64,000 nt of DNA from Candidatus Gastranaerophilales bacterium (GTDB lineage: Bacteria > Cyanobacteriota > Vampirovibrionia > Gastranaerophilales > Gastranaerophilaceae). Below are positions 24,770 to 30,276 of the stretch, piece by piece. The stretch spans positions 1 to 64,000 of the forward strand of contig CALUTG010000003.1 of NCBI GenBank assembly GCA_944323615.1, given 5' to 3'. Under the pieces are notes generated by a model that saw only the letters and a list, made by a program, of their open reading frames with translations, ran no database searches and was not told the origin of the DNA. The translations under genes were made by a program, and so were the position numbers. Within the stretch, counting starts at the first letter, position 1, and each line of letters starts with the position of its first letter.

Positions 24770-25096
24770 TTAGTTTCTATATTTTTTATTATTCTTTATC
24801 TTTTTTCTTTCTTTAAGACTGTCGTCTATGTATTTTTTGATATAGAACTTTATAAGTTCGATATCACTTTCTTCTTTTGATTCCTTTAAAATACGATATA
24901 ATTTTAAAGCTTGTATAAAAGCAGTATTTAATGTCTCTTGCAACAAATTACAACGATTTTTATATTTATTTAATGGAATTAACATTATTACATAAGTTAT
25001 TAAAATAGCCATGATAATTAGCATTGTTTCCATTCTCCAATGTTCTAAAAAATATTTAAAAGTTTCAGTCATTAATAATTGTGATAAAATATCCAT
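24770..25096 (-). CDS. First early gene: membrane protein with charged tail
   Basis: This 108-residue protein has one membrane helix (about residues 24-44, MLIIMAILITYVIMLIPL) followed by a long helical tail with charged, lysine-rich end. The second ATG (25096) is used because AGGGGA is correctly spaced for it but overlaps the first. It is the first gene behind the leftward early promoter, with an unusually long leader of about 400 bases. Function unknown. Confidence 0.55.
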   Translation of the reverse strand: MDILSQLLMTETFKYFLEHWRMETMLIIMAILITYVIMLIPLNKYKNRCNLLQETLNTAFIQALKLYRILKESKEESDIELIKFYIKKYIDDSLKERKKIKNNKKYRN

Positions 25097-25177
25097 ATTC
25101 ATCCCCTTGTAGTTAATTCATAATTCGCAAAATCATGATACCACAAGGGGTTTGCTTTCTTTAAGTCCTTAAGGCAA

Positions 25178-25198
25178 CTATCCGGAAATTCCGGATAG
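25178..25198. promoter_or_regulatory. Perfect 21-bp palindrome in the early leader
   Basis: CTATCCGGAA, A, TTCCGGATAG form a perfect 10-bp inverted repeat, the form of a dimeric regulator's operator. It lies about 80 bases before the first early gene. Confidence 0.6.
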
Positions 25199-25472
25199 CT
25201 GATATTAAAAACTTGTTTAAGTTCTTTTCTTCTGCGCCGATATGTCATCTGTAGCGACTTACATTATTAACCTGTCAATGTTCAATTTTTCCACAGCCAA
25301 GCCAGGGGTAAGAAGTAAATAATTTTACTCTCCCGCCTGAATAAATTTCCCGGACTGCTGATGTATTTGAAAACCTAATGTAATTATGTGTTTAGCTTCT
25401 TTTTTCTTCCCTTTGGTCAGCGGGTTGTTCCGCTCCGCTTCACACAACTTTACAAAGATTGTATTTTTTGCC

Positions 25473-25551
25473 AGGTTTAATTTATAGTATATTTACCAAG
25501 TGAAATTTAACCTAACAAAATTATTGTAATAGATTTTTAATCAAAAGTCAA
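25473..25551 (-). promoter_or_regulatory. Leftward early promoter with flanking operator-like repeat
   Basis: On the minus strand TTGACT (25546-25551), 17 bases and TACAAT (25523-25528) make a good sigma-70 promoter. Just downstream, 11-base arms at 25473-25483 and 25503-25513 are inverted with ten matches. This is the likely site of repression by the XRE protein encoded next door. The rest of the 25103-25577 gap holds the early leader and no gene. Confidence 0.7.
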
Positions 25552-25577
25552 GTATTTATATTTTAAGAATAAAAATT

Positions 25578-25871
25578 ATGGACACAGTTGGAGAAAAAAT
25601 TAAATATATAAGAAACGAAAAAAGGCTTACCCAAGAGGCTTTAGGGGCTCTTCTTGGCTTTTCAAAACAGATTGTCTCAAGTTATGAAAACAATATCTCA
25701 AAACCTAACTATGACTTCTTAGTAAAATTACACAACTTATGCGGTGTAAACTTAAACTGGTTTATTGCAAACGCAGGTCAACCTTTTAACCCTCCACAAT
25801 TTGAGGAAGTTCAGGACGAACTAACTCAAAAAGTAGAAGGATTATTGAGAAAACATAAGCTTATACCTTAA
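25578..25871 (+). CDS. XRE-family prophage repressor
   Basis: This 97-residue protein is an N-terminal HTH_3 domain (GEKIKYIRNEKRLTQEALGALL, then FSKQIVSSYENNISKPNYDFL) with a short helical C-terminus. It lacks a LexA-like peptidase domain, so induction would not be by RecA-driven self-cleavage. Divergent from the early operon and next to operator-like repeats, it is the best candidate for the lysogeny repressor. Confidence 0.85.
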   Translation: MDTVGEKIKYIRNEKRLTQEALGALLGFSKQIVSSYENNISKPNYDFLVKLHNLCGVNLNWFIANAGQPFNPPQFEEVQDELTQKVEGLLRKHKLIP

Positions 25872-25968
25872 TATTTTTTAATATTTTCTCAAAAAGATTA
25901 AGACCATAAGTAAAGCCATAGGTGATAATCAATGCATAAAAAATTTTTACAAAATCTAATATTGTCAT
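25861..25968 (-). CDS. Tiny hydrophobic protein overlapping the repressor 3' end
   Basis: This 35-residue frame (MTILDFVKIFYALIITYGFTYG...) is a single membrane helix with a basic end. A perfect GGAGG lies six bases before the ATG, so it is probably translated. Its last 11 bases overlap the repressor gene tail to tail. Size and composition recall hydrophobic peptides of type I toxin systems, but no antisense RNA is evident. Confidence 0.6.
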   Translation of the reverse strand: MTILDFVKIFYALIITYGFTYGLNLFEKILKNIKV

Positions 25969-26102
25969 TCTTGCCTCCTTTCTTAAAATATAAAGATTTT
26001 TAAGAAACAAGAATTTATATATAATAAGAAATTATATTAAATTTGTATAAAAAATTTACAAACAATATGTTTTATAAATTTATAATATCAAGGGTGAGAA
26101 TT

Positions 26103-26309
26103 ATGGAAGAATTTTTTAAAAAATATAATATTAAAGAAGGTGTTCGTAGATTGTTTGTATGTTTAAGCATATTCTATTTGGTTGTTGCCATAATATGCTT
26201 TTTCCCGGCTCCAGGTTTTGCTTTTATGTTTATTTTTCTTTCAATTGTTAATTATGGATTTTTCTACCTTTTAGTTTGGATGGTCAAAGGTTTTAAAAAG
26301 GATGTGTAA
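26103..26309 (+). CDS. Small two-helix membrane protein (moron)
   Basis: This 68-residue protein has two membrane helices (LFVCLSIFYLVVAIICFF and FMFIFLSIVNYGFFYLLVW). The ATG at 26103 follows AAGGGTGA; the longer frame from 26043 has no ribosome site. It sits in the lysogenic control region, so it may be expressed in the lysogen, perhaps acting in superinfection exclusion. That role is a guess. Confidence 0.6.
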   Translation: MEEFFKKYNIKEGVRRLFVCLSIFYLVVAIICFFPAPGFAFMFIFLSIVNYGFFYLLVWMVKGFKKDV

Positions 26310-26310
26310 T

Positions 26311-27000
26311 ATGAAAAGAACTTTAACTTTGTTGTTTATTTTTGTACTGTGCACAAGCTGTGTAATCGCAAAAGAAAAATTAACTCCAGAAGAAAAAATT
26401 CAGCAAAAATGTGGAGCTCTTATTAATACAGCATTACAGAATAACGATACAGATTCAACGATAAGCGCCTATGAATGTTTGTATAAACAATATCGTAAAT
26501 ATCATTATGATAATATGAAAAATGCTAAAAATCTTCACACTCTTTATGCTGAAAAATATGCTAATAGTCTTGAGTCCCCATACTATTTTGGAAAAATGAA
26601 AAAATATGCTTTTGATGCCTTGAGAAAGGGAAGTAAAGATCCATATATAGCTGATTGTGCTTTATTATATGCCATAAAATCTAGTAATACTTATGAAATT
26701 GATGAAGCATTTCAATATTTAGTAAATATCTCACCCCAAAAAGCTGCTGATATTAAAAATGATGTTTTAAAGGTTAAACAAATTATAAAACAGCAAGAGA
26801 CCGCTGAGGCAGCTCGGCAAGCAGAAATTCGCAGGCAGCAAGAAGAGCAAAAAGCCATAAGAGAACAAGCTCAAAGAGATGAAGAATATAGACAAGACTA
26901 TCTTAATGAAATAAGGAATTTGAATTGGAATATGCAGCAAATTGATTCTAATTTGAATAGTATTGACTCCAATCTTGATGGATTACGTTGGGGATATTAA
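26311..27000 (+). CDS. Exported coiled-coil protein (possible lysogenic-conversion gene)
   Basis: This 229-residue protein has a signal peptide (MKRTLTLLFIFVLCTSCVIA) that may be a lipoprotein signal (CTSC is a weak lipobox) or an ordinary one. A helical TPR-like middle (about 40-150), a Gln/Glu/Arg coiled coil (about 150-195) and a polar end with IDSNLNSIDSNLDGLRWGY follow. The ATG at 26311 follows AGGA. Lying between repressor and late genes, it is a candidate for expression during lysogeny and display on the host envelope. Confidence 0.65.
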   Translation: MKRTLTLLFIFVLCTSCVIAKEKLTPEEKIQQKCGALINTALQNNDTDSTISAYECLYKQYRKYHYDNMKNAKNLHTLYAEKYANSLESPYYFGKMKKYAFDALRKGSKDPYIADCALLYAIKSSNTYEIDEAFQYLVNISPQKAADIKNDVLKVKQIIKQQETAEAARQAEIRRQQEEQKAIREQAQRDEEYRQDYLNEIRNLNWNMQQIDSNLNSIDSNLDGLRWGY

Positions 27001-27013
27001 CTATAGCTGAGGA

Positions 27014-27041
27014 TTGAAAATTAACTGAAATAGATTATAAT
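27014..27041 (+). promoter_or_regulatory. Promoter of the candidate small RNA
   Basis: TTGAAA (27014-27019), 16 bases, TATAAT (27036-27041). Transcription would start near 27048. Confidence 0.7.
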
Positions 27042-27047
27042 AAAGAT

Positions 27048-27162
27048 GTAACTATGTAGCTTGACTACGGGGTAACCGGATGTATGTCCTAAGTGTTATC
27101 TGTTACCAAATCGATAGCGAGAAGACCGGGTTTATCCCAAAAAAGGTTTTTCTCGCTTTTTT
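27048..27162 (+). ncRNA. Candidate small RNA, about 115 nt
   Basis: Between a good promoter and an intrinsic terminator there is no credible reading frame. GGTAAC and GTTACC (about 27071 and 27102) can pair to form a first stem-loop. AGCGAGAA (27116) pairs with TTCTCGCT (27150) to form the terminator stem, followed by six T. It lies just upstream of the Panacea antitoxin gene. I do not recognise the RNA family. Confidence 0.6.
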
Positions 27163-27267
27163 AAATTTGTGTTAAAATAATTTTATGAGAGATATGTGAG
27201 GGTAGAAAAAGACATGAAAAGATGTTATAATGATTCATGCAATGTAAATAATATGAGGTGTAATATT

Positions 27268-27723
27268 ATGTACAAAGCAACTGAAATCGCTGATTATATT
27301 TTATGCATTGCCCAAGAAAACGGCGACTTAATCACAAATCTTAAATTACAAAAGCTTCTTTATTATGCACAAGCCTGGTTTTTGGTAAATAACAATAACG
27401 AACGGCTTTTTAGCGATGAAATAGAAGCTTGGCAATATGGTCCGGTTATACCTGCAGTTTATAATAAATATCAAAAATTCGGACGTAGCCCCATTGTTAT
27501 TGACTGTGATATAGAGAATGATTTTAATAATATAAATGATTGTACAAAAGAATATCTAAGAGAATTTTGTCAATACTTTTTCAGATTTTCTGCAACAGAT
27601 TTAGTAAGTATGACACACCAAGAAAAACCTTGGCTGGAGGCTGTAGAACAAGGACTAAATACTCCTATTAATACAGATACAATGTACAATTTTTATTCAG
27701 AAATGTTAGAAGATGAAAAATAA
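27268..27723 (+). CDS. Panacea (DUF4065, SocA-like) antitoxin
   Basis: This 151-residue protein matches the Panacea domain: ATEIADYILCIAQENGD, LTNLKLQKLLYYAQAWFL, FSDEIEAWQYGPVIPAVYNKY and a DLVSMTHQEKPWLEA end. Panacea proteins are antitoxins that pair with many unrelated toxins, often on phages. The ATG at 27268 follows GAGGTG; the longer frame from 27196 is not supported. Its stop overlaps the next gene by 11 bases, so the two are translationally coupled, as in toxin-antitoxin pairs. Confidence 0.88.
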   Translation: MYKATEIADYILCIAQENGDLITNLKLQKLLYYAQAWFLVNNNNERLFSDEIEAWQYGPVIPAVYNKYQKFGRSPIVIDCDIENDFNNINDCTKEYLREFCQYFFRFSATDLVSMTHQEKPWLEAVEQGLNTPINTDTMYNFYSEMLEDEK

Positions 27724-28132
27724 ATTTTCTTTTAGTACTAATTCTGCGCCAATGCAAGTTAGTATTAAAGCTGGTAAACCTCAATATTATAAATTGAAAC
27801 CTATATTTTCTTTTGAATACTATATCTGTTCAGATAGGTATTTTTCAAGAGAGCATTCAAATGAAAGGAGAAATTCTCTCTATAATTTCTTGCAAAATAT
27901 AAAGAATTTTTCTGCTATAACGTGGGGAGAAATGAAGGAAAACCCCAAAGTATATCATTTCCATGAATTTATAGAAAATGTATCTGTATTAAATTCATAT
28001 ACAGATAGGGATATGGTACAATTTAAAATTCCTGGGCAAAAGCAAGGTCGTTTTATTGGCTTTTTTGATAATAATAACGTGTTTAATGTCTTGCTATATG
28101 ATTCACAACATCAAGCAGACCCAAGAAAATGA
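27713..28132 (+). CDS. Putative toxin partner of the Panacea protein
   Basis: This 139-residue protein directly follows and overlaps the Panacea antitoxin. It is rich in aromatic and basic residues, with a helical middle (RRNSLYNFLQNIKNF) and a strand-rich end (GRFIGFFDNNNVFNVLLYDSQHQ). The last part resembles the closing strands of RelE-type ribonucleases, but no catalytic set can be confirmed. No recognised family. Toxin role is inferred from position alone. Confidence 0.55.
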   Translation: MKNKFSFSTNSAPMQVSIKAGKPQYYKLKPIFSFEYYICSDRYFSREHSNERRNSLYNFLQNIKNFSAITWGEMKENPKVYHFHEFIENVSVLNSYTDRDMVQFKIPGQKQGRFIGFFDNNNVFNVLLYDSQHQADPRK

Positions 28133-28232
28133 TAATCATAAAGATTTCAAATTATTTGTCCTATTTATTAGTTTGTGTAAAAAAATATCCCACTTTCTCA
28201 CACTTGTTTACACTGGCTAAATGCTGTAAGGT

Positions 28233-28275
28233 TATAATGTAATAGTTTCGTAAGTCCGGATTTACCGGGCTTTTT
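28233..28275 (+). promoter_or_regulatory. Promoter-like box directly followed by a terminator
   Basis: TATAAT at 28233-28238 has no well-spaced -35 box. Fifteen bases on, AGTCCGG (28253-28259) pairs with CCGGGCT (28265-28271) and five T follow. This arrangement just before the late operon is typical of attenuated late promoters needing an activator or antiterminator. Confidence 0.5.
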
Positions 28276-28325
28276 GATTAGAAAACACACATTATCTCAT
28301 AATCTCTATTTATTTAAACGGACAA

Positions 28326-28380
28326 AAGCCCGCTCGTCCTTCACTTACGATCTTGGCTTACACGCGGGCTTGTTTTTTTT
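28326..28380 (+). terminator. Intrinsic terminator just before the late operon
   Basis: AAGCCCGC (28326-28333) pairs with GCGGGCTT (28364-28371) and eight T follow. It ends 14 bases before the start of the terminase small subunit gene. Confidence 0.85.
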
Positions 28381-28394
28381 GAGGTTAAATTTGT

Positions 28395-28703
28395 ATGCCT
28401 AATGAAAAGAATCTAAAAAAAGACTTTACTCCAAAAGAGCGACAGGAAAACGGCAGGAAAGGTGCCGCAATAACTAATAAAAAAATTGCCGCAAGAAAAT
28501 CCCTAAGAGAAGAGCTCCTTGCGCTTTTAAAAACAGGCGACACTCAAAATAGAATGAGTCTTGCACTAATAGAAAAAGCTATCTCGGGTGACACAAAAGC
28601 ATTTGAAATTATACGGGATACCATTGGAGAAAAGCCAAAAGACACTTGTCTTCTGGATACAGGAAGCGCTCTTACGATTAATGTTATAACCGGAGGTAAA
28701 TAA
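28395..28703 (+). CDS. terS: Probable terminase small subunit
   Basis: This 102-residue basic protein has the pattern seen upstream of many large terminases: FTPKERQENGRKGAAITNKK, a helical middle, and GDTKAFEIIRDTIGEKP followed by ALTINVITGGK. The position two genes before terL supports a DNA-recognition role in packaging. The family is weakly conserved, so this rests on pattern and position. Confidence 0.65.
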   Translation: MPNEKNLKKDFTPKERQENGRKGAAITNKKIAARKSLREELLALLKTGDTQNRMSLALIEKAISGDTKAFEIIRDTIGEKPKDTCLLDTGSALTINVITGGK

Positions 28704-28909
28704 TGCCATCTTGTCTAAGTATTTGTATTTGTATATTTTGTGCAACCCTCTGTTTCTGTGCCGGGTTTTTATTCTGCCACAGAGTTATTTACCTCCACAG
28801 GGTTGAAAAAATAGATCCGATTAATACCTTTAAATCATCAAAAAATGTTACGGCGCTCTCTACAGCCATTAGAGAAGAAAGGATTAACAGGCTGCTTGAT
28901 ATGGGGTAG
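28703..28909 (+). CDS. Small Cys-rich membrane protein
   Basis: This 68-residue protein has an N-terminal membrane helix with six cysteines (CLSICICIFCATLCFCAGFLFC) and a charged cytoplasmic tail. It overlaps the stop of the previous gene by one base and ends two bases before terL. Possibly a lipoprotein-like or moron gene; no family recognised. Confidence 0.55.
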   Translation: MPSCLSICICIFCATLCFCAGFLFCHRVIYLHRVEKIDPINTFKSSKNVTALSTAIREERINRLLDMG

Positions 28910-28911
28910 GT

Positions 28912-30276
28912 ATGCTTAAAGAAATTACACTCAACGGTAACAGAATTATCTTTAACCCTGCTCAAAAAGAAATGATTAATGAAATTCTTAATCCGGACCT
29001 TACAGTCAAAGACAATGATATAAAAGTTTTTGCTTTTTTTGGAGGGTTCAGGAGTGGAAAATCTTTCTTGTTTCAACTGGTTACATTCCTATTATGCTGC
29101 GCTTACCCTGGTTTGAGAGTCGTTTATGTCAGAAGGACTTATGACCAGCTCAAAGACTCCGTTATAAAACAATTCAGAAAAGATTTTGAAAAATACGGAC
29201 AGTTTGTTTACGTTGAAACTTCCAAAGAAGGTTCAAGAATAGCACGTTTTAACAATGGTTCTACAATAGTTTTCAGAGCTTTTGACAAAGACACCAACAT
29301 ACTATCTGCAGAGTACGATCTCGCTTGTGCCTGCCAGGTGGAAGAAATTCAAGAAGCCCTATACAAGCAGCTTTTTGGAAGACTTTCCGGAAACATAATG
29401 CCAAAAACATTTATGTTAGTTGAAGGAAACCCTAAGGGAAACTGGGTCAAAAAAGCTTTCTATGACCCGACAGAGGAAGAACGCAAAGAGAAAAAATTGT
29501 TTTTCCTGAACTCGCCTACAACTGCAAATATAGAAAATCTTCCGAAAGATTATATTGAAACACTGAAAGGACAGTATTCAGAGCGGGATTTCAAAAGGTG
29601 GGCTCTCGGAGATTGGCAAAATTTATACGGGCTTGTGTTTAGTGAGTTTGACGAAAAAGAACACGTTATTCCGCCGATTAATTTTAAAGATATCGGAAAA
29701 GGAGAAAAAATCCTCATAGGAGGTGACTACGGCTGGAGAAACCCTTCCTCCTTCCTCTGGGGGGTGAAAACTTATGATGAGGACATAATAATTTTTGATG
29801 AGTTCTATGAATCAGAAAAGCTCCCGGAAGAACTTGCAAAAGAGAATCTTAGATATGGCCAGTTCGGAACAGTTATGGACTATGCTATAAAACGTCCGGA
29901 CAGAGATGGTAAATGTCTCTGGGATACTCTAGTCAAGCTTGGAATGAGGCTTATTGAATCAAACAAAGATGAGTTTAACAACATAATAACAGTGAATTCA
30001 TTGTTTAAGCAAAAAAGGCTTCATATCTGCTCAAACTGTGTGAATCTTATCTGGGAAATTAAAAACTATAAATTCAAAGAACCTAAGCTCGGGGCTGAAA
30101 AGAATCTTGATGAAACCCCTGTAGATAAAGATAACCACGCCATTGATGCACTTTTATATCTGATTGAAAAACTTATCGGACGGGCCGTTGTCACAGAATT
30201 TGAAAAAGCTGAAAGACACAGTCTGCGAGCTGCAACCGTAAAACATAACAGAGGAGCATTATACAACTATGGATAA
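28912..30276 (+). CDS. terL: Terminase large subunit
   Basis: This 454-residue protein is the ATPase/nuclease motor that packages phage DNA. The Walker A-like loop GGFRSGKS is at 44-51, and VVYVRRTYDQLKDSV follows. The acidic ATPase motif lies in CACQVEEI (about 140-147). The nuclease half has GGDYGWRNPSS and ends with DKDNHAIDALLYL, holding the metal-binding acids. Length is normal. It overlaps the next gene by eight bases. Confidence 0.95.
   Translation: MLKEITLNGNRIIFNPAQKEMINEILNPDLTVKDNDIKVFAFFGGFRSGKSFLFQLVTFLLCCAYPGLRVVYVRRTYDQLKDSVIKQFRKDFEKYGQFVYVETSKEGSRIARFNNGSTIVFRAFDKDTNILSAEYDLACACQVEEIQEALYKQLFGRLSGNIMPKTFMLVEGNPKGNWVKKAFYDPTEEERKEKKLFFLNSPTTANIENLPKDYIETLKGQYSERDFKRWALGDWQNLYGLVFSEFDEKEHVIPPINFKDIGKGEKILIGGDYGWRNPSSFLWGVKTYDEDIIIFDEFYESEKLPEELAKENLRYGQFGTVMDYAIKRPDRDGKCLWDTLVKLGMRLIESNKDEFNNIITVNSLFKQKRLHICSNCVNLIWEIKNYKFKEPKLGAEKNLDETPVDKDNHAIDALLYLIEKLIGRAVVTEFEKAERHSLRAATVKHNRGALYNYG

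Follow-up and report, generated by a model that had tools for sequence, protein, structure and literature searches.

The window, by which we mean the whole analysed stretch of 64,000 nucleotides, includes a short unit on its forward strand (27045–27162) that is almost certainly a genuine RNA gene, and that belongs to a real structured RNA family missing from Rfam. In related genomes, members of this family lie beside genes of AbiF-like HEPN proteins, and the family very probably consists of AbiF-type (type III-like) antitoxins. The copy in the window lies in a prophage and is toxin-free. By analogy with known systems, an active counter-toxin role rather than that of a remnant may be proposed for such an orphan RNA, with a confidence standing about midway between doubt and acceptance.

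The RNA gene and its structured family

The features of the RNA locus are listed below; the promoter and the U-tract are given from sequence reading.

27014–27041, forward strand: promoter, TTGAAA (27014–27019), 16 nt, TATAAT (27036–27041)
27045–27162, forward strand: window RNA, class A orphan, AbiF-type antitoxin-like (covariance-model relatives, 9 genomes)
27048–27106, forward strand: three-way junction domain (10 of 17 pairs changed on both sides across 9 sequences)
27048–27052/27102–27106 and 27056–27059/27065–27068, forward strand: stems P1 and P2
27071–27076/27095–27100 and 27078–27079/27088–27089, forward strand: stems P3 and P3b
27075–27096, forward strand: P3 loop motif ACCGGAUGUAUGUCC-UAAGU-GU, where sequence conservation within the family is highest
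27117–27156, forward strand: second hairpin and terminator stem, in which the P3 loop motif recurs in diverged form (ACCGGGUUUAUCCC..AAGGU)
27157–27162, forward strand: U-tract of the intrinsic terminator

The promoter matched 11 of the 12 consensus positions and ranked first among the 28 promoter-like sites within 25000–30000. With a predicted start at 27045–27048 and an end inside the U-tract, the RNA is about 115 nt long. The original prediction had described a promoter, about 115 bases with two stem-loops and an intrinsic terminator; the promoter, the length and the terminator were recovered, while in place of the two stem-loops there is a three-way junction of P1, P2 and P3 followed by the terminator hairpin. 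Also the absence of a credible open reading frame held: the open frame that begins at the loop ATG is probably non-coding, since it has no visible ribosome-binding site and reads through the terminator, and since the corresponding loop of G113 reads ATG-TAA. Folding of the single sequence gave −30.5 kcal/mol (z −1.67), and as 12 of 200 shuffles were as good, the advantage over shuffles was slight and by itself unconvincing.

When 65 genomes of the genus were searched at the DNA level, one relative emerged, G087, with 78% identity over the 5' half, and the window sequence and G087 together already outlined the three-way junction with compensatory changes. The covariance model R1, covering the three-way junction domain, was built from these two sequences. 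In a search of 383 genomes of the taxonomic family it detected nine strong members, the window included (G087, window, G116, G228, G348, G428, G104, G113 and G155). In the alignment of the nine sequences 99.3% of the cells were standard pairs, 10 of the 17 pairs had changed on both sides, and the covariation score was 0.477 compared with 0.229 in shuffles (equalled by 0 of 500). As the alignment was fitted to the model, these counts are biased in its favour, but the margin is large. When the partners were slid by one to three columns, pairing fell to 59% or less. The window RNA forms all 17 consensus pairs, scores 90.5 bits with R1 and 80.8 bits with R2, and has the features of the class A RNAs, i.e. 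P1 of GUARC/GYUAC, the P3 loop CYGGAUGUA... and support from covariation. The conservation and covariation that the original prediction had left to be sought in relatives were thus present in nine homologues, adding to the support for a self-contained RNA gene.

The terminator hairpin of the relatives repeats the P3 loop motif as ACYGGAUGUAUGUCC..AAGGU, and canonical copies of this second motif were present in G087, G116, G228, G104, G113 and G155. In the window RNA the second copy has a diverged loop and retains its folding.

No Rfam match was obtained for the window RNA at the gathering score, nor for the element at E up to 10, and it fell below the gathering threshold of RF03085 (abiF RNA). 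Neither did 17 loci of relatives match Rfam at E up to 5, and none of the four RNA classes described below is included there. The earlier statement that no known family could be recognised therefore holds for Rfam, but not beyond it, because a previously unrecognised family does exist. The order-wide covariance search added no member outside the taxonomic family. Weak R1 matches in G279, G123:C119 and G016 were judged to be due to chance. The same-genus DNA matches L003, L006, L013 and L015 share only the promoter with the window RNA, and were rejected as other short RNAs that are not its relatives. Three of these, L003 1237–1540 (G000:C39) and L006 and L015 (G076) near 1501, are short RNAs with a near-identical TTGAAA..TATAAT promoter. 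Each lies antisense to a gene that encodes a small hydrophobic peptide and has a ribosome-binding site (MNDFNISLLLIFLILCMLKNGSHLKR; MENINLSLMILFLILFIIKNDTHQLREVSL), opposite the 3' part of that gene, and these look like type I toxin-antitoxin loci of Gastranaerophilales.

HEPN partner genes and RNA classes in related loci

In six of the nine class A loci (G087, G116, G348, G113, G155 and G104) a conserved protein of about 240 aa was encoded downstream of the RNA, within about 100 nt of the terminator. The same order of RNA and gene was found in the more divergent G123 and G278, with the RNA rearranged in the former and the gene frameshifted in the latter, and the gene of G104 contains an in-frame TAA. 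The RNA upstream of the HEPN gene in G123:C67 (L052/L101) looks as though the 5' half of the first hairpin had been fused to the 3' half of the second by recombination across the repeated loop motif.

The partner protein was present in 45 of the 383 genomes, and R131, N132 and H136 of its RNxxxH motif were invariant in 22 sequences. The commonest Pfam match was Abi_2, which was weak (5 of 22, best E 3.5e-5), and several HEPN models also matched weakly. The best match of the AlphaFold model (pLDDT 90.6) among solved structures was 8vz6_A, the PbAbiF dimer bound to its ncRNA, with Z 10.0 over 169 residues and the next entry at 5.2, although a Z near 10 can reflect an arrangement common among helical proteins. 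Foldseek alone gave no match of the model in the PDB (best E 1.5), PbAbiF being singled out only by re-alignment with VIA, and the sequence profile of the partner matched no PDB chains. Searches of IMG/VR with peptide patterns of the HEPN family gave no matches. The partner protein is predicted to have an AbiF-like fold with an R-N-x-x-x-H motif; the fold is made more credible by the fact that the sole standout match is a HEPN protein that has an ncRNA beside it, and by the agreement of the motif and the gene order.

When the 300 nt upstream of about 30 HEPN homologues were inspected, an RNA-like element was found in nearly all, and these elements fell into at least four sequence classes. Class A is that of the window RNA, and class B (GUACUCUAGCUC...) shares its layout. 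The class B model R3 matched 34 genomes, and a HEPN gene was present at 25 of the 30 loci inspected. The RNAs of classes C and D have consensus promoters (TTGACA, 11/12) that are directed away from the toxin gene, for which reason these RNAs cannot be leaders of the toxin mRNA; most simply, they would act in trans. A class B-like RNA in G073:C99 (L068/L128) lies on the strand opposite its HEPN gene, unlike at most class B loci. In IMG/VR the class C pattern had no match and the class B pattern was too unspecific to be used, the best R3 scores there reaching 21 bits, so that a match of 17 bits is not evidence alone.

At the toxin-linked loci, the RNA would act as antitoxin within an AbiF-type (type III-like) pair, bound to the toxin protein. 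Of the roles suggested in the original prediction, action on a host target comes closest, with the difference that the target is likely to be a toxin protein and not an mRNA. That the RNA is instead an unrelated phage sRNA base-pairing with host or phage mRNAs is extremely improbable: this reading fits only the promoter–terminator layout, whereas the family is defined by its protein-partner context and by a motif of loop plus internal loop, not by a free seed.

The closest likeness is to AbiF–RCd22 of the Clostridioides difficile prophage phi027, which has a promoter, an RNA of about 100–130 nt with two similar hairpin motifs, and a terminator (PMC12373285), and in which, as in the relatives of the window RNA, the RNA is followed by a HEPN toxin gene with R-N-x-x-x-H (PMC12373285). 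RCd22 binds C. difficile AbiF and neutralises it both in cis and in trans, and location in a prophage is common to both systems (PMC12373285). Unlike the window RNA, RCd22 matches Rfam RF03085; the window differs also in its absent toxin gene and in a first domain that is a three-way junction with the loop CYGGAUGUAUGUCC. PbAbiF with its AbiFr ncRNA (8vz6; PMC12373285, PMC12737573), the best structural match of the partner protein, likewise has an ncRNA beside the toxin, but protein identity is about 10%, the RNA sequence is another, and the window is without a toxin. With type III toxin-antitoxin systems (ToxIN, AvcID) the relatives share an RNA antitoxin gene placed just upstream of the gene of an RNase or other toxin. 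They differ from these in having no tandem 36-nt repeats, in a toxin that is a HEPN protein and not of the ToxN fold, and in the divergent transcription of some of the RNA classes. The window RNA itself has none of the tandem short repeats of the ToxIN type, but two imperfect hairpins instead.

The neighbouring Panacea pair

Downstream of the RNA the following features were present.

27203–27231, forward strand: promoter-like site of the Panacea gene (TAGAAA-17-TATAAT with TG), outside the RNA
27268–27723, forward strand: gene of a Panacea (SocA-like) antitoxin, the neighbour of the RNA (Pfam SocA_Panacea, E 3.9e-20)
27713–28132, forward strand: 139-aa partner gene of the Panacea pair, presumed toxin, overlapping the Panacea stop

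The Panacea gene matched also the NCBIfam model SocA_antitoxin (E 4.5e-25), yet below the cut-off of the model, and its 139-aa partner had no match in Pfam, NCBIfam or PADLOC. The original prediction correctly placed the RNA just upstream of the Panacea gene, and considered it a possible leader attenuator of the toxin-antitoxin operon or a silencer of phage early or toxin mRNA. A leader or partner of the Panacea pair, acting by attenuation at the terminator or by base-pairing with the mRNA of the pair, would be compatible with the RNA ending 105 nt before the Panacea ATG and with the orphan RNA of G228, which is also near a Panacea gene. It is nevertheless improbable. A promoter-like site of its own precedes the Panacea gene, in no other relative does a Panacea gene follow the RNA, that of G228 being upstream with another gene between, and the divergently transcribed classes C and D cannot be leaders. 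The best duplex between the RNA and the Panacea operon reached −46.6, compared with −38.9 (sd 3.4) in shuffles, but it lies inside the coding region, ignores the RNA's own fold and was equalled by 2 of 60 shuffles, and thus silencing of mRNA gained no real support. The adjacent Panacea pair is probably a mere neighbour of the RNA.

Two further elements were observed between the Panacea pair and the late genes. At 28190–28280 there is a second promoter-to-terminator unit, in which a promoter-like sequence ending in TATAAT near 28239 is followed by a hairpin and U-tract (AAGTCCGGATTTACCGGGCTT TTT, 28252–28272), ahead of the late genes. At 28308–28385 a long inverted repeat, AAGCCCGC...GCGGGCTT, and then a T run precede the first late gene at 28395; the repeat may be a strong terminator or a further RNA.

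RNAs without a toxin gene

The window contains a prophage, with an integrase beside tRNA-Leu, a CI-like repressor (25578–25871), a terminase (28912–30276) and a portal protein. No HEPN homologue was detected in the window, nor in the genome G000 (96% complete). An AbiF-type pair, in which a HEPN toxin gene is adjacent to the RNA, is thus not present at the locus, which instead has the arrangement of a phage mimic, an antitoxin-like RNA in a phage with the toxin absent. Neither was a HEPN homologue found in G228 or G428, two MAGs of 88% completeness in which the RNA is on a short contig. The class A orphans, three in number (window, G228 and G428), are all in prophages or among phage genes, the surroundings of the G228 RNA including an endolysin and those of the G428 RNA a terminase small subunit and a CI-like repressor. 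They form 17 of 17, 17 of 17 and 15 of 15 pairs, and of 18 bases without variation among the toxin-linked RNAs they keep 16, 17 and 18. The promoters are intact at the orphans, and promoter-like sites were present also before the RNAs of relatives (e.g. L035 with 11/12 and L037 with 10/12).

Single hairpins of the family occur on other phage contigs, from IMG/VR. A gut phage, L099/L100, with an integrase 70% identical to that of the window, has an intergenic bare hairpin, ACCGGATGTATTCCTTCAGTGT, which G104 has in identical form, and in L090 a hairpin UAGACUGGAUGUAUGUCCGUAAAGUCUA is located within a terminator. L017 is a weaker case. No HEPN gene was detected at E 0.01 in the records of L099, L100, L090 or L017, which may be fragments. 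Besides the class A hairpin, L100 includes at 2107–2190 a hairpin resembling P3 of class B (17.1 bits at 2107–2136) and, after it, AAAGCAAGTAA, which class B RNAs also have there; the score is not significant alone. The exact DNA pattern of the window RNA had no match in IMG/VR. Of the IMG/VR matches to the loop 16-mer, the majority are coincidences in protein-coding sequence, and the matches to known phage records were AT-rich fragments only.

Orphaning is not specific to phages, since the class B orphans (G262, G156/G218 and G113) sit outside phages, in chromosomal toxin-antitoxin or defence regions. The orphan of G262 is beside a RelE/HigA-like pair and that of G113 in a defence-like region. 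In G156/G218 (L150/L151; also L134, L135) class C and class B RNAs stand in tandem immediately ahead of a two-gene HEPN module, and an AbiF-like gene is absent. This conserved module (L037 2806–3485, L152–L157) encodes a protein of about 106 aa with no known domain and a HEPN protein of about 121 aa (PF05168), was found in 9 of 259 genomes, and is possibly an unrecognised toxin-antitoxin pair.

These surroundings would fit an RNA co-opted beside other toxin modules and helping to control them: a HEPN pair in G428 and G156/G218, the RelE/HigA-like pair in G262 and the Panacea pair in the window. The class A RNA of G428 and the class B RNAs of G156 and G218 precede the same two-gene HEPN module. 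However, at least six other copies of the module are without an RNA, which argues that the RNA is a unit separate from it, and in G262 a promoter-like sequence with an inverted repeat belongs to the RelE-type gene itself. Co-option is accordingly very improbable.

Another possibility, doubtful on balance but a serious one, is that the window RNA is a remnant of a former RNA–HEPN pair whose toxin gene has been lost or replaced by the Panacea pair, the RNA surviving without a present role or because its loss was once lethal. Toxin decay with the RNA still in place occurs elsewhere (the in-frame TAA of G104 and the frameshift of G278, together with the rearranged RNA of G123), which makes a remnant plausible. 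Furthermore, a prophage of G116, with its integrase present, holds a complete class A pair, class B orphans too lie beside unrelated toxin-antitoxin genes, and the window RNA has a diverged second hairpin. Against this, the HEPN gene has left no trace at the window locus, where the promoter, all 17 pairs and 16 of the 18 invariant bases are retained, as in two further independent prophage orphans. The side-by-side orphans of two classes in G156/G218 would also need more than one accident.

As for the active role, we infer a trans-acting, toxin-free antitoxin from the precedents of RCd22 and the phage PhiTE and from the anatomy of the window RNA. PhiTE carries antitoxin-like RNA repeats and no toxin, and its pseudo-ToxI defeats ToxIN by RNA mimicry (PMC3475682). 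Like pseudo-ToxI, the window RNA is a phage-borne, toxin-free RNA resembling a bacterial RNA antitoxin (PMC3475682), and the 1.5 repeats of wild-type PhiTE (PMC3475682) resemble the single hairpins on the phage contigs. ToxI, however, is a 36-nt pseudoknot repeat for ToxN. In addition, PMC12737573 cites a study on a DNA region of phage sk1 that, as cited there, protects phage 712 from AbiF. The prophage would carry the RNA alone and express it from its own promoter, and in trans the RNA could serve as a decoy, so that AbiF-like toxins, whether of the host or of a rival element, would stay neutralised at infection. With the toxins neutralised, abortive infection would fail. The diverged loop of the second hairpin counts against a decoy, because stem-breaking mutations in both motifs of RCd22 abolished its neutralisation (PMC12373285).

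More tentatively, the phages and defence loci of Gastranaerophilales might gather several toxin-free AbiF-type RNA classes as an anti-abortive-infection repertoire, which is rather unlikely at present. The candidates for it are the full RNAs in three prophages, the single hairpins in other phages and the tandem of classes C and B in G156/G218.

Among the papers listed in searches of the open-access literature, none described AbiF-type RNAs without a toxin in phages, or the window RNA family in Gastranaerophilales. By analogy, the window RNA appears to resemble the AbiF-associated antitoxins and pseudo-ToxI, yet it is outside the abiF family of Rfam and toxin-free. AbiF RNA–HEPN pairs are regarded as ancestors of Cas13. 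The results add new AbiF-type RNA classes, outside Rfam, from an uncultured gut lineage, and copies in prophages that lack the toxin. Should the orphan RNAs neutralise the toxins, AbiF systems would have natural inhibitors made of RNA, a counterpart of pseudo-ToxI and the RNA anti-CRISPRs.
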